Positions 39,861 through 54,466 of a stretch of 64,000 bases of DNA are shown piece by piece (the first letter of the stretch is position 1; each line of letters starts with the position of its first letter). The DNA is from Crocinitomicaceae bacterium (GTDB lineage: Bacteria > Bacteroidota > Bacteroidia > Flavobacteriales_D > Crocinitomicaceae): NCBI GenBank assembly GCA_022447585.1, contig JAKVAR010000001.1, positions 124,001-188,000 of the forward strand, read 5' to 3'. The notes under the pieces were generated by a model. The model saw nothing but the letters and a program-made list of their open reading frames with translations, ran no database searches and was not told where the DNA came from. A program made the translations under genes and the position numbers.

Positions 39861-42452
39861 ATGAAAAACACAGTAACTCATTCTCGCATATTATTGCGTG
39901 GAATATTAGTTTTTTCTTTGATTTTAAATACGCATTCCACTTTCGCTCAAAAAAAAACAAAGAAAAAAGACAAAGAGAAAACTGAAGCAGCAGTAAAAAA
40001 AGACGGTTTTAAGAAAATCTCAGAGTTAACTAAAAACAGTTCAGAATTCCCAGGTCTTTTTACTGTATATCAAGACTCTACGAGTGGCGATATTAAAATT
40101 GCCGTATCAAAAGATCAGATTGGCAAAGAATACATTTACTTCAGTCAGATTGCCGATGGTGTTACTGAAGTTAGAGGCTTTAGAGGGAATTACAAAGGTT
40201 CTAAGGTCATAAAAATTGAAAAATACTACAATAAAATTGAGTTTATTCAAGTAAACACGTCATCCTATTTTGACCCAGAAAATGCCCTTTCAAAAGCCGC
40301 CGAAGCGAACATGCCAGATGCTATTATAGCGAGTTTAGAAATTGAAGGAACGAACAAAGATGAAACTATTTACCTTCTTGATGGGAATAGCTTGTTCCTG
40401 ACTGAAACGTTTTCTCAGGTAAAACCTCCTAGATTTCCAGGCCAATCTCCAATGTCTTTCACGCTTGGAAATCTAGACAAAAATAAAACAAAAATCAATG
40501 CTATTAGAAGTTACCCTGCTAATACAGATATCGCTGTTGAATATGTCTATTCAAAGCCTTCTGTTCTAAATGGTGGGTCAAGAGCTGTTACAGATGGGAG
40601 AAATGTTAGTATTAAAGTTTATCACAGCTTAATTGAGATGCCAGACAATGACTATCAACCATTATTTGATGACCCAAGAGTCGGTTATTTCACAACACAA
40701 GTTACAGATATGACAAGTCCTAAAAGTGCTAACTATAGAGATTTAGTGCACAGGTGGCATTTGGTAAAAAAAGATCCTGAAGCTGAACTATCAGAACCTG
40801 TGGAGCCAATCGTTTGGTGGATGGAAAATACCACTCCTGAAAACTTAAGGCCTATAATTAAAAATGCTGCAGAAAAATGGAACATTGCTTTTAAAGAAGC
40901 AGGTTTTAAAAATGCAGTGGTGATTAAGCAGCAACCTGATAATGCTGACTGGGATGCGGGAGATATTAGATACAATGTATTGAGGTGGACGGCATCTCCG
41001 AATCCTCCTTTTGGTGGATATGGACCGAGTTTTGTTAACCCTAGAACAGGTCAAATTATGGGAGCTGATATTATGTTCGAATATCGCTCAGTTCTAGGCC
41101 GCTTGAGAGCAGAGGCATTTTTCAAAGCTCCTAATTCCAATCATTCAGAAAGTGAAATTCAGTTTACAAACTGCGATCAACATACATGTGAAGCAGCTGG
41201 ATATGGTTCAGTTAACACCGCATTTGCAGGGCTAATCCTCCAATACATTGATGGGCAAGAAATAGAAAACAGTCAAATGATTAACGATTATTTGCACTAT
41301 TTAATTTTGCATGAAATTGGTCACACATTAGGACTCAATCATAATATGAAGGCAAGTCAATTACACAACTTAAAAGATGTTCATAATATTGAGATTACTT
41401 CTAAAGTTGGTGTTATGGCTTCGGTAATGGATTACCCTTCTATCAATGTATCGAAAGACAGAGAAAACCAAGGCCAGTACTTTACTAAACGTCCAGGGCC
41501 ATATGATTTATGGGCTATTCAATTTGCATATGAAACAGGCAGAACGGCAGAAGAAAGTAAAACTCTTTTAGCTCGATCTACAGAACCTCAATTGATGTTT
41601 GGTAATGATGCTGATGACATGCGTGCACCGGGTAAAGCAATCGATCCAAGAGTAAACATATACGACTTAACCAGTGATGCGATTGAATATGGCATTGAAA
41701 GAATGGAGTTAGTTAAAATTCTCGCCTCTGAAATGATGGATAAACACAATAACGAAGGACAATCATACGATGATCATTTCATTGCTTACCAGTCAATGAT
41801 GCGTCAATACAGAGATGCCGCGAACACAATGTCTCGATATATTGGAGGTGTTTATGTTGATAGAGCTTTTGTTGGTCAAGAAGGCGGCACGAAGCCTTAT
41901 ACACCTGTAGCATTAGAGAAGCAAAAATTAGCTTTAAACTCATTATCTGAATATATATTCGCCCCGGACGCATTTGATTTCTCTAATGAGATGTATAGCT
42001 ATATTCAACCTCAACGTAGAGGGTTTAATTTCTTTATGCGATCTGAAGATCCTAAATTACACAGTCAAGTATTAAACATTCAGTCGAACGTATTAAATCA
42101 CATATTACATCCAACAACCCTTCAACGTATTGTTGATACAAAGATGTATGGTAATGAATATGATCTTTCTGCTTTCATGACTGATTTAAATAAATCAATA
42201 TTTAAGGAAGATATAGCTGGATCAGTAAATACATTCAGACAAAACCTTCAGATTAAGTATACAGAAATGCTAATTGCAATGGTTGTTGGGAAAACTGAAG
42301 AACGATATAACAATATTGCTCAATCACATGCAATTTATTTCTTGAAAGAAATTAAGAAAATGGCTAGTAACTCATCTGGAGACATTTCATCCAAAGCTCA
42401 CAAAACTCATATAATTACTTTAATCGACAATGCATTAAAAGAGATCAAGTAG
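39861..42452 (+). CDS. Zinc-dependent metalloprotease (DUF4953/DUF5117 family)
   Basis: 863 residues from the ATG at 39861; a TTG two codons earlier is less likely because it lacks any support. Signal peptide (about 1-30), then a Lys-rich segment, the DUF5118/DUF5117 regions and a metallopeptidase domain with H484-E485-xx-H488 and H494 in HEIGHTLGLNHN and a Met-turn candidate in VMDYPS. This family is common in Bacteroidota and acts in the periplasm or outside the cell. It stands alone with a strong terminator, and an inverted repeat sits just before the start. Confidence 0.88.
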   Translation: MKNTVTHSRILLRGILVFSLILNTHSTFAQKKTKKKDKEKTEAAVKKDGFKKISELTKNSSEFPGLFTVYQDSTSGDIKIAVSKDQIGKEYIYFSQIADGVTEVRGFRGNYKGSKVIKIEKYYNKIEFIQVNTSSYFDPENALSKAAEANMPDAIIASLEIEGTNKDETIYLLDGNSLFLTETFSQVKPPRFPGQSPMSFTLGNLDKNKTKINAIRSYPANTDIAVEYVYSKPSVLNGGSRAVTDGRNVSIKVYHSLIEMPDNDYQPLFDDPRVGYFTTQVTDMTSPKSANYRDLVHRWHLVKKDPEAELSEPVEPIVWWMENTTPENLRPIIKNAAEKWNIAFKEAGFKNAVVIKQQPDNADWDAGDIRYNVLRWTASPNPPFGGYGPSFVNPRTGQIMGADIMFEYRSVLGRLRAEAFFKAPNSNHSESEIQFTNCDQHTCEAAGYGSVNTAFAGLILQYIDGQEIENSQMINDYLHYLILHEIGHTLGLNHNMKASQLHNLKDVHNIEITSKVGVMASVMDYPSINVSKDRENQGQYFTKRPGPYDLWAIQFAYETGRTAEESKTLLARSTEPQLMFGNDADDMRAPGKAIDPRVNIYDLTSDAIEYGIERMELVKILASEMMDKHNNEGQSYDDHFIAYQSMMRQYRDAANTMSRYIGGVYVDRAFVGQEGGTKPYTPVALEKQKLALNSLSEYIFAPDAFDFSNEMYSYIQPQRRGFNFFMRSEDPKLHSQVLNIQSNVLNHILHPTTLQRIVDTKMYGNEYDLSAFMTDLNKSIFKEDIAGSVNTFRQNLQIKYTEMLIAMVVGKTEERYNNIAQSHAIYFLKEIKKMASNSSGDISSKAHKTHIITLIDNALKEIK

Positions 42453-51481: not shown

Positions 51482-51784
51482 TTAAAGTCCTTTAACATAC
51501 TCGGCATGAGTATCTGCTAAATCTGGACATTTTTCAGAAATTGAAGTCGCCATTTGCTCATCAGAAATATCCACATCAAAAACAACATCAAGAGCACATA
51601 AAGAGTAATCTAAATCTGTCATATCAATATCCATTCCTGAATCATCAGCTTCATTCTCCGCATCTTTCTCAGCCATACAGTCACACAATGTTGTTGCTGC
51701 TTTATCAAACTCTGCCTTTCCTGGCCCTCCGCAAGAAGCTAAAGTAAATGTTAAAACTCCTATTGCTAAAATCGTCTTTTTCAT
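51482..51784 (-). CDS. Small lipoprotein, function unknown
   Basis: 100 residues from the ATG at 51784; the longer reading to 51817 overlaps a perfect -7 box. Signal peptide with a lipobox (TLASC, Cys about 18), then GGPGK and a Cys-, Asp- and Glu-rich acidic helix-forming stretch (LCDCMAEKDAENEADD). Several Cys remain in the mature part. Likely an outer-membrane or inner-membrane lipoprotein; no family recognised. Transcribed alone, divergently from dnaX. Confidence 0.75.
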   Translation of the reverse strand: MKKTILAIGVLTFTLASCGGPGKAEFDKAATTLCDCMAEKDAENEADDSGMDIDMTDLDYSLCALDVVFDVDISDEQMATSISEKCPDLADTHAEYVKGL

Positions 51785-51810
51785 AATAATGTTCATTAGT
51801 TGTATAGGCC

Positions 51811-51839
51811 CAAACATACTAAGAATTCTGCAAAAACAA
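51811..51839 (-). promoter_or_regulatory. Promoter of the small lipoprotein gene
   Basis: On the minus strand TTG (51839-51837), 18 nt, TATGTTTG (51818-51811), then a leader of about 25 nt to the start codon. Confidence 0.6.
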
Positions 51840-51880
51840 CTACGGATATTCCATTAATCCATCACTTTTGTCTACAATTT

Positions 51881-51904
51881 GATTCAGTTATTAACAATTG
51901 AATC
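51881..51904. promoter_or_regulatory. 24-bp imperfect palindrome between the lipoprotein gene and dnaX
   Basis: gattcagttatt / aacaattgaatc: ten of twelve pairs match. It lies about 40 nt before the dnaX start and could be an operator or a divergent control site. Confidence 0.35.
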
Positions 51905-51933
51905 AAACCATTTCATTTTCTGTTTCAAAAGAG

Positions 51934-51941
51934 TAACTTTG
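51934..51941 (+). promoter_or_regulatory. -7 box TAACTTTG of dnaX
   Basis: Exact consensus, ending 5 nt before the ATG, so the transcript would start at or next to the start codon. Confidence 0.5.
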
Positions 51942-51946
51942 CTTCA

Positions 51947-53062
51947 ATGAGTGATTTTGTAGTATCCGCAAGAAAATATCGTCCCCAAACCTTCGACACA
52001 GTTGTTGGTCAAAAGTCGATTACTTCTACTTTACGTAATGCTATTAAAAGCGATCACTTAGCCCAAGCTTTCTTATTTTGTGGTTCCCGCGGTGTTGGAA
52101 AAACATCTACTGCGCGTATTCTTGCAAAAACAATCAACTGTTTTGATAAATCTGAAACAGTTGAGGCATGTGATAAATGTGAATCGTGCGAATCATTTAA
52201 CTCAGGAGCATCTTTAAATGTTTATGAACTGGATGCAGCATCGAATAATTCAGTTGAAGATATACGGTCTCTAATTGATCAGGTACGCATAGCACCGCAG
52301 TTAGGAACGCATAAAGTATATATCATTGATGAGGTACATATGTTATCGACTTCTGCATTTAACGCATTCTTGAAAACATTAGAGGAGCCTCCAAAACACG
52401 CAATTTTCATTTTAGCGACCACAGAAAAGCATAAGATTATTCCAACGATTCTTTCTCGTTGCCAGATTTTTGATTTTTCAAGAATTAAAGTAAAGGATAT
52501 CGCTGATCATTTGGCTAGTATCGCTGAAAAAGAAGGTATTACAGCTGAAGCTGACGCTTTACATATTATCGCTCAAAAGGCAGACGGTGCGTTGAGAGAT
52601 GCGCTATCGATTTTTGATCAAATTGTTACTTTTTCCGGTAATACGGTTACTTACAATAATGTAATTGACAACCTAAATATACTCGATTACGATTATTATT
52701 TCAGAATTGTCGAAAGTGCTCAAAAGGAAGATATTCCTAGCGGGCTTCTTTTATTGAATGATATTATTGAGCGTGGTTTTGATCCACACAATTTTATTGT
52801 TGGCTTAGCAGATCATTACAGAAACTTATTAGTCTGTAAAGATGTTAGAACAGCTCAACTATTAGAAGTTAGTGAATCTATTCAGCAGAAATACGTGGAG
52901 CAATCTAAAGAAATTGAAGCCAATGAATTAGTTCGCGCCTTAGGTGTTCTAAGTAAAACTGATGTTGAGTACAAGGCATCCAAAAATCAACGACTGCTTG
53001 TAGAAATGGCTCTTATGCAATTGTGTTCCATTAAGCAGGAGCTTGAAAAAAAAAACTCCTAA
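51947..53062 (+). CDS. dnaX: DNA polymerase III gamma/tau subunit, zero-frame (gamma-like) product
   Basis: 371 residues covering the full clamp-loader ATPase: Walker A GSRGVGKTS (about 45-53), four zinc-binding Cys (C64, C73, C76, C79), Walker B IIDEVHML and sensor TTEKHKII, then domain III. The frame ends at TAA in ...CTTG-A10-CTCCTAA, so this product stops just after domain III, like gamma in other bacteria. The conserved tau tail is encoded downstream in the -1 frame. An AGGAG sits 4 nt before the A-run. The complex loads the sliding clamp and organises the replisome. Confidence 0.93.
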   Translation: MSDFVVSARKYRPQTFDTVVGQKSITSTLRNAIKSDHLAQAFLFCGSRGVGKTSTARILAKTINCFDKSETVEACDKCESCESFNSGASLNVYELDAASNNSVEDIRSLIDQVRIAPQLGTHKVYIIDEVHMLSTSAFNAFLKTLEEPPKHAIFILATTEKHKIIPTILSRCQIFDFSRIKVKDIADHLASIAEKEGITAEADALHIIAQKADGALRDALSIFDQIVTFSGNTVTYNNVIDNLNILDYDYYFRIVESAQKEDIPSGLLLLNDIIERGFDPHNFIVGLADHYRNLLVCKDVRTAQLLEVSESIQQKYVEQSKEIEANELVRALGVLSKTDVEYKASKNQRLLVEMALMQLCSIKQELEKKNS

Positions 53063-53676
53063 CGGATCCAGTTAACATCATTTCATTCCCAAATCAAAAC
53101 CTTCGAGATAAGTTAAAAAAGGCGGCACCAAAACCAATCGCCAAAAAAGAATCTAAAAAAGTCTTCATGCAAAAAGAAGCGCCAAAGGTTATGACGGCCC
53201 CATCTGGCCAAGTCAAATCATCTGGTATATCTATCAAGAAGATGCTTCAGAAAACAGAAGAAGTAAATGAGGAAAAAGGTTTTGACATCAATAACATGCC
53301 TAAAACCCCATATACGATTGATGACCTTAAGATGGCGTGGAGAAGGTTTGCTTTTGAAATGAAAGACAAACGTAAAGAAACAATATACAACGCGCTGATC
53401 AAACGAGAACCAAAACAAATTAGTGATCATGAATATGTTTTGGTTGTAGACAATCAAGTTCAAATTGATTACATCAAACCTTATGCTGGTGAACTCATAG
53501 GATATATTAGAGCCGAGGTTAAAAATTACCTCATCGATATTAAAATGGAGATTACTCAAAATCAAGAGGCGGAAGTTAAGTTTCAAACTGGAAAGGACAA
53601 ATTTGCCTCTCTTGCAAGAAAAAACCCGAACTTACATACACTTAAGAGCAAATTTAATTTAGATATTGAGTACTAA
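53047..53676 (+). CDS. dnaX: tau C-terminal part of dnaX, read in the -1 frame
   Basis: This frame joins dnaX if one base is re-read within the A10 run (53046-53055); the first ATG in it is at 53167, inside the gene. It would give a tau of about 576 residues. The sequence ends with YTIDDLKMAWRRFAFEMKDK...KFASLARKNPNLHTLKSKFNLD (shown in pieces), the typical Bacteroidota DnaX tail that binds polymerase and helicase. Nothing upstream suggests an independent promoter. See the frameshift finding. Confidence 0.85.
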   Translation, partial: KKKLLTDPVNIISFPNQNLRDKLKKAAPKPIAKKESKKVFMQKEAPKVMTAPSGQVKSSGISIKKMLQKTEEVNEEKGFDINNMPKTPYTIDDLKMAWRRFAFEMKDKRKETIYNALIKREPKQISDHEYVLVVDNQVQIDYIKPYAGELIGYIRAEVKNYLIDIKMEITQNQEAEVKFQTGKDKFASLARKNPNLHTLKSKFNLDIEY

Positions 53677-53722
53677 ACAGAGATATTCACTTCGACCTTT
53701 TGTTCTTATTAATTAAAAAATC

Positions 53723-54466
53723 ATGGAAAAAGATAAAAAACTAGCTGTCTTAATTGACGGTGACAATATACCTTCAAAATATATTAAAGAAATGATGGAA
53801 GAGATTGCTAAATATGGTAATCCAACTATCAAAAGAATTTATGGAGATTGGACTACACCACAACTTTCTAAATGGAAGAAGATTCTTTTGGAGAATGCAA
53901 TTACTCCAATGCAACAATATGGATATACATCTGGGAAAAATGCTACAGATTCTGCAATGATTATTGATGCTATGGACATCTTATACTCTGAAAAGGTGGA
54001 CGGATTCTGTATTGCTTCAAGTGATAGTGATTTCACTCGTTTAGCAATGAGAATTAGAGAAACAGGATTGAGCGTTATCGGAATTGGAGAAAAGAAAACT
54101 CCGAATCCTTTCATCGTTGCTTGTGATAAATTCATTTACTTAGAGATTCTTCATAAAACAGACAACGACCCAGAGAACCCTTCTAAACCTGCCAACAAGC
54201 GAGCTAAAAAGACCGTTGATACAATCACTCCTAAAGTTGTTAAACTTATCATGCAAACCGTTAATGATTGCGCCGATGAGGATGGATGGGCATTCTTAGG
54301 GGATGTCGGAGGGCTGATTCAAAAGAAACAACCTAATTTTGATGCTAGAAACTACGGTTTTGAAAAATTAACTCCATTAATTAAATCCACTGGTAAATTC
54401 GAAATTGACCAAAGAGATAGTCAGAAAGGAAGAGCTAAACTTATCTATATCAGAAGAAAAGATTAA
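53723..54466 (+). CDS. NYN-domain protein with C-terminal OST-HTH/LOTUS-like domain
   Basis: 247 residues. NYN (PIN-like) nuclease domain (about 7-150) with acidic site residues in LAVLIDGDNIP, DSAMIIDAMDILY and SSDSDFTRLAMRI; the pattern of Asp residues suggests activity. A basic linker with NKRAKKTVD follows, then an OST-HTH/LOTUS-like RNA-binding domain (about 165-245; DEDGWAFLGDVGGLIQKKQPNF in pieces). Proteins of this type are thought to process or bind RNA. It is 46 nt after dnaX on the same strand. Confidence 0.85.
   Translation: MEKDKKLAVLIDGDNIPSKYIKEMMEEIAKYGNPTIKRIYGDWTTPQLSKWKKILLENAITPMQQYGYTSGKNATDSAMIIDAMDILYSEKVDGFCIASSDSDFTRLAMRIRETGLSVIGIGEKKTPNPFIVACDKFIYLEILHKTDNDPENPSKPANKRAKKTVDTITPKVVKLIMQTVNDCADEDGWAFLGDVGGLIQKKQPNFDARNYGFEKLTPLIKSTGKFEIDQRDSQKGRAKLIYIRRKD

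Follow-up and report, generated by a model that had tools for sequence, protein, structure and literature searches.

A poly-A run at the gamma/tau junction of Bacteroidia dnaX as a probable site of programmed transcriptional slippage

A dnaX gene read in two frames

How is tau made from a dnaX gene whose reading frame closes directly after gamma? This question is raised by a locus in the window, the 64,000-nt stretch of a Crocinitomicaceae genome analysed here, whose numbering is used throughout; the parts of this gene described below lie on the + strand. The zero frame of dnaX spans positions 51947 to 53062 and encodes a gamma protein of 371 amino acids, in which Pfam DNA_pol3_delta2, DNAX_ATPase_lid and DNA_pol3_gamma3, that is, clamp-loader domains I-III, were matched. 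When the same genome was searched with the TIGR02397 profile, dnaX, at 442.5 bits, was the only place above the cut-off. The zero frame ends with the codons GAA AAA AAA AAC TCC TAA, the stop (TAA, 53060-53062) starting 5 nt after the last base of a run of ten A (53046-53055). Direct reading and the three Pfam domains agree here with the first-pass annotation, which had placed the stop at that distance from the run and right after clamp-loader domain III.

The -1 frame is open from the run to a TAA at 53674-53676. That this stretch (53047-53676) encodes the tail of tau, as the annotation had also stated, is confirmed by its match to positions 433-613 of the 614 positions of NCBIfam PRK14971 (E 3.6e-21) and to an HMM made from the tau tails of uninterrupted genes (E 2.3e-43). 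Moreover, when 27 tails from the genus were compared (351 pairs), the differences fell on -1-frame codon positions 1, 2 and 3 in shares of 0.30, 0.20 and 0.50, a pattern that fits a frame under translation. Searches with the tau tail gave no match in Pfam at E<=0.001 or among PDB sequences at E<=1, and an Rfam scan of window positions 51500-54300 gave no match at E<=1. Directly downstream of dnaX lies an ORF (53723-54466, 247 aa) that, by eye, we take to resemble NYN/LabA-type nucleases.

Upstream of the run, an AGGAG (53037-53041), a putative SD-like sequence that contains the codon of Glu 365, stands 4 nt before the first A, and a TGA (53044-53046) shuts the -1 frame directly upstream of the run, so that the change of frame has to take place inside the run or just after it. 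Downstream, a TAA at 53073-53075 closes the third (+1) frame. A stretch of nine A was matched three times in the window, two of these matches lying within the dnaX run, against 17.2 expected, and A10 is present at 34 distinct places in 4.475 Mb. The only other A9 of the window is found at 39949-39957.

One explanation for such a locus is that the homopolymer was miscounted, the true run being A11 and dnaX one ordinary ORF. The window's genome is indeed an assembly of 201 contigs, and uninterrupted relatives with A11 exist (L035 and L039). However, this explanation does not fit the relatives of the gene. All the 34 genomes of the genus, including the window's, have a dnaX match and, among the 31 junctions examined, 30 (again including the window's) are split like the one described above, with A10 or A11; at 29 of 30 genus loci the zero frame stops at codon 372 and tau lies in the -1 frame, and L355 adds a further split locus. 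In the sample of the family, 146 of 150 genomes gave a match and the open frames were mostly gamma-sized. Split genus genes with A11 (L010, L011, L017, L034 and L036) owe the added A to a substitution at the end of the run, and therefore their phase is unchanged. Also against a miscount, a split gene with A10 (L308) occurs in G099, a genome of a single contig, and two further single-contig genomes, G089 and G122, have frames of gamma size (389 and 379). As an explanation for the whole genus, a miscounted run or an assembly error is thus refuted by the split junctions; judged from their sequences, the relatives rule out a miscount as the general cause of the split, and for the window's own run we find it scarcely credible. 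The claim of the annotation that gamma is templated, and that tau depends on a change of frame, holds for the reading of the ORFs and for the split shared across the genus, and aligning dnaX from close relatives, a check that it had proposed, recovered the A-run together with the same frame break at those 30 junctions. A continuous frame lacking the homopolymer, which it had named as part of what would speak against it, does not occur among the 31 genus junctions examined, the sole continuous gene (L035) having A11. Two of the 30 split genus genes show an early closure of the tau frame (at 209 nt in L012 and, in L355, 266 nt past the stop of gamma), and in L032 the tau frame runs past the end of the contig. 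L012 and L355 in the tau frame, and L329 in the gamma frame, are dnaX copies with an extra early stop, due either to assembly error or to decay.

The run, the templated frame and the closing stops across the class

How widespread is the run? Our class sample consisted of 149 searched genomes, three of them without a match, and, with G431, G422 and G515 left out, it provided 143 junctions. A run of A9-A12 is carried by 122 of these; only lengths from 9 to 12 were found, A8 being also looked for. Among the 122 carriers, tau continues in the same frame in 86, in the -1 frame in 30 and in the +1 frame in 3, whereas two genes are cut by a contig end and the last one is L275, which was counted as a carrier from the A9 in its junction sequence, the region of the run search being limited. 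The other 21 junctions have no run and an uninterrupted tau, and therefore the device is dispensable. Most uninterrupted genes (67 of 86) have the run in codon phase 1, as do 14 of the 30 genes split at -1; the others have it in phase 0 or 2, and the sequences flanking the run vary from lineage to lineage.

The complete set of 342 loci comprises L009-L355 minus five exact duplicates, with L001-L008 (other matches in the own genome) and L356-L368 (repeat genomes) excluded and L369-L388 kept as a separate non-class set; the named loci nearest to the window's come from MAGs whose labels are mixed, namely Flavobacteriales (L039), Crocinitomicaceae (L042), Lishizhenia (L043), Chryseobacterium gleum (L040) and Chitinophaga pinensis (L044), and records of this kind suggest Crocinitomicaceae as the family and Bacteroidia as the class. 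In the set of 342, genes above 55% GC carry the run in 11 of 13 cases. Outside the junction run, stretches of at least nine A were found 11 times and stretches of at least nine T never, in a total of 578,007 nt. In the phylum outside the class, 20 genomes were chosen, four of them for their gamma-sized frames; eight of the 20 have A9-A10 no more than 400 nt from the junction, one of these eight runs lying 266 nt away.

While the run is kept, the frame in which tau is templated changes. Among all the genes retrieved that have both a run and a long tail, tau is in the same frame in 150, at -1 in 128 and at +1 in 5 (one of these five from a MAG), and the tau-tail HMM matches the tails of all the 133 split genes at E<1e-5. 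On a quick FastTree tree of gamma proteins (335 of the 342 loci; short, partial or distant rows were dropped), run carriers changed between uninterrupted and split 31 times, a rough number given the quick tree, and presence of the run changed 18 times on the same tree. Gamma is 99% identical between L039, which is uninterrupted with A11, and L301, which is split with A10. Antonov et al. (PMC3711429) regard shifts in mixed directions as indicative of transcriptional slippage.

In 87% of the uninterrupted genes, each of the two non-tau frames meets a stop within 20 nt of the run, compared with 17% at control positions; for the -1 split genes the shares are 91% and 20%. Among representatives with less than 75% identity, the third-frame stop is present in 53 of 64 uninterrupted genes (control 26.1) and in 28 of 33 -1 split genes (control 16.3), with 0 of 5000 draws as high in either case, although these draws and the following ones are not exact probabilities because the sequences are related. 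In the class sample, 75 of 84 uninterrupted genes have this stop, the control mean being 35.1 and the highest draw 52. The result is weaker for -1 split genes with less than 70% identity (19 of 24; 7 of 5000 draws as high) and for those of the class sample (23 of 30; control mean 14.6, top of 5000 draws 25).

Probable transcriptional slippage and the alternatives

How would a single run provide both proteins? The A10 run of dnaX is probably a programmed transcriptional-slippage site. RNA polymerase would slip on it to produce messages with 9, 10, 11 or more A. Messages with A10 (also A7 or A13) would be read to the TAA at 53060 and give gamma; those with A9 and A12 would be read to the TAA at 53073 and give a gamma longer by four residues (375 aa, by arithmetic); and those with A11 (also A8) would have the two frames joined and encode full tau, whose length is predicted, again by arithmetic from A11 messages, to be 576 aa. 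Because the slipping polymerase would produce several message lengths from any template, the phase of the template would be of little weight; it has switched repeatedly in the class, the window's lineage sitting in the gamma phase. Three features favour this mechanism: the run persists through changes of the templated frame, tau occurs in both directions, and the two non-tau frames end in stops close to the run. From these comparisons we infer RNA-polymerase slippage here, as well as the mixture of messages and the gamma:tau ratio resulting from it. The +1 class is small, and the predominance of -1 over it, by 128 to 5, is predicted by a ribosomal -1 shift and likewise by slippage that mostly adds one A.

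The first-pass annotation had left the choice between slippage and a -1 shift open, and the comparative data favour RNA-polymerase slippage. In the ribosomal alternative, programmed -1 frameshifting on A_AAA_AAA or A_AAA_AAN, aided by the AGGAG, would yield tau from the unedited A10 message, acting by itself or in addition to slippage. In favour of this alternative, the heptamer is in phase and tau lies in -1 in 128 of the 133 split genes. Additional support comes from the 74 close relatives, defined by a -1 split, a stop at codon 372 and a gamma more than 69% identical (L154 lies outside the window's family): 73 have a Glu at residue 365, and 68 of these encode it by GAG, compared with 28% GAG gene-wide. 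A GAG kept beyond codon usage before the run suggests a further constraint at this place and, together with the AGGAG, whose spacing is in our judgement compatible with an internal SD, it fits an element that could aid a ribosomal shift. Elsewhere in the gene, Glu 129 (52331-52333, in the IIDEVHM motif) is encoded by GAG in 68 of 69 close relatives, again versus 28% gene-wide.

The AGGAG that the annotation rightly noted 4 nt before the run is a local feature. Of the 74 close relatives, 31 have it at this position and 32 have a strong SD-like 5-mer within 16 nt upstream of the run; such a 5-mer is rare elsewhere, with 6 cases among 58 further -1 split genes and 9 among 152 genes that are uninterrupted. 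The run is also common to uninterrupted and +1 relatives, its length of at least nine is greater than a heptamer requires, and the third-frame stop is useless to a -1 ribosomal shift, which does not need it. A downstream stem-loop was not found in the window (z +1.19); the consensus structure of 12 genus sequences had four pairs, none of them changed on both sides, and 40 of the 74 close relatives gave a mean z of -0.14, compared with -0.51 at a control located 150 nt further. Furthermore, Bacteroidia ribosomes are reported not to recognise the SD (PMC9976891) and, in E. coli, A_AAA_AAC and A_AAA_AAA are described as less shift-prone than A_AAA_AAG (PMC5009743). In view of both sides, we consider the ribosomal shift unlikely and transcriptional slippage the better account of the locus.

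A different possibility is phase variation at the DNA level, in which A10 and A11 cells or strains would switch between making gamma only and making tau. The near-identical L039 and L301, with A11 and A10, speak for it, but the same phase is shared by 30 of 31 genus members and stops shut the two frames other than that of tau. Every replicating cell is expected to need tau, which also counts against this explanation, and we regard it as very improbable in comparison with slippage of RNA polymerase.

The gamma-first layout is already known, and the dnaX of the window is a further member of the type described by Antonov et al. in 2013 (PMC3711429). These authors presented gamma-first dnaX as a new type, with 17 genes from 12 genera, proposed slippage and recorded ten A in 9 of the 17 two-ORF genes, none of which was annotated in RefSeq; a review by Atkins et al. 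in 2016 (PMC5009743) cites the layout as a reversed product order. The reversal pointed out by the annotation is therefore real in this genome but was already in print. As in the genes of Antonov et al., the window has gamma in the zero frame, tau in -1 and a conserved poly-A at the change of frame. The differences are that all 17 are -1, whereas here tau is in the 0, -1 or +1 frame with the run kept, and that stops closing both other frames, as well as a group in which the run is missing (see below), are shown here.

The dnaX gene of Thermus thermophilus, with slippage on A9, also has a run of at least nine A at the gamma/tau border and early stops in both non-tau frames, two products being expected (PMC1088944, PMC5009743). 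It templates tau, whereas the window's lineage templates gamma and, by analogy, the run of the window would work like the Thermus device in the other phase. Escherichia coli dnaX has in common with the window the gene, the two products, an A-rich shift site and an upstream SD-like sequence (PMC5009743, PMC3711429). However, its ribosomal -1 shift on A_AAA_AAG makes the shorter product, whereas the window needs a shift for the longer one, and the window has a longer run, no downstream stem-loop that we could find and a different presumed level of slippage. Shigella mxiE resembles the window in that its longer product requires transcriptional slippage (PMC1088944), but its gene and function are unrelated. 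A dnaX frameshift is also treated in PMC3017870, at a different site, and PMC3971599 lists dnaX in a gene-presence table. A literature search, covering mainly titles and the openings of abstracts, brought up no report of a dnaX run that extends across a class and switches phase.

Split genes without the run, and what slippage would mean

Does a split gene always carry the run? In genera g5, g12, g9, g20 and g23 of the window's family, 16 fetched genomes are split with no stretch of at least nine A at the junction (L333-L347 and L349; L103, L109 and L113, with short frames and no run, were left out). The gamma stop and the -1 tau tail are kept in this group, and 16 of 16 tails match the tau-tail HMM. 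In six of these genomes (L334, L339, L343, L345, L346 and L347) the -1 frame is shut 13 nt before the gamma stop and therefore slippage farther upstream cannot yield tau. A -1-frame ATC starting 4 nt before the gamma stop is present in 13 of the 16; this junction Ile codon is ATC in 13 of 13, and at seven further columns where these tails have a conserved Ile, ATC is used in 0-4 of 11-13. An ATG or GTG overlaps the first bases of the gamma stop in L341 and L345, and an ATG starts at its third base in L349. In 7 of the 13 (L335, L336, L337, L338, L339, L340 and L346), there is no -1-frame ATG, GTG or TTG from the upstream stop to 40 nt past the gamma stop. Our preferred reading, to which we would give about an even chance, is that the C-terminal part of tau is separately initiated in this group, mostly at AUC. 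The alternative would be a novel shift signal of the form pyrimidine-ATC-N-TA-purine.

A separate observation concerns L333, L335 and L336, where an AAGGAGG is followed by 4 nt and then by the ATC at the gamma stop; this strong SD-like sequence stands in bacteria that have been reported as not using the SD.

Considering the class as a whole, we put forward a more general proposal, tentatively and with somewhat more doubt than belief: dnaX of Bacteroidia may carry a phase-blind slippage device, whose templated frame would drift almost freely between tau-first and gamma-first because RNA polymerase would scramble it in any case, accompanied by a group without the run in which a split tau is separately started, mostly at AUC, or depends on a novel recoding signal. 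Gamma-first dnaX genes appear truncated or broken to gene callers, and close relatives in opposite phase represent natural experiments on slippage. If slippage does take place at this run, a large share of a bacterial class would make both forms of an essential replicase subunit through the stutter of RNA polymerase and, in many genomes, tau would depend on it.
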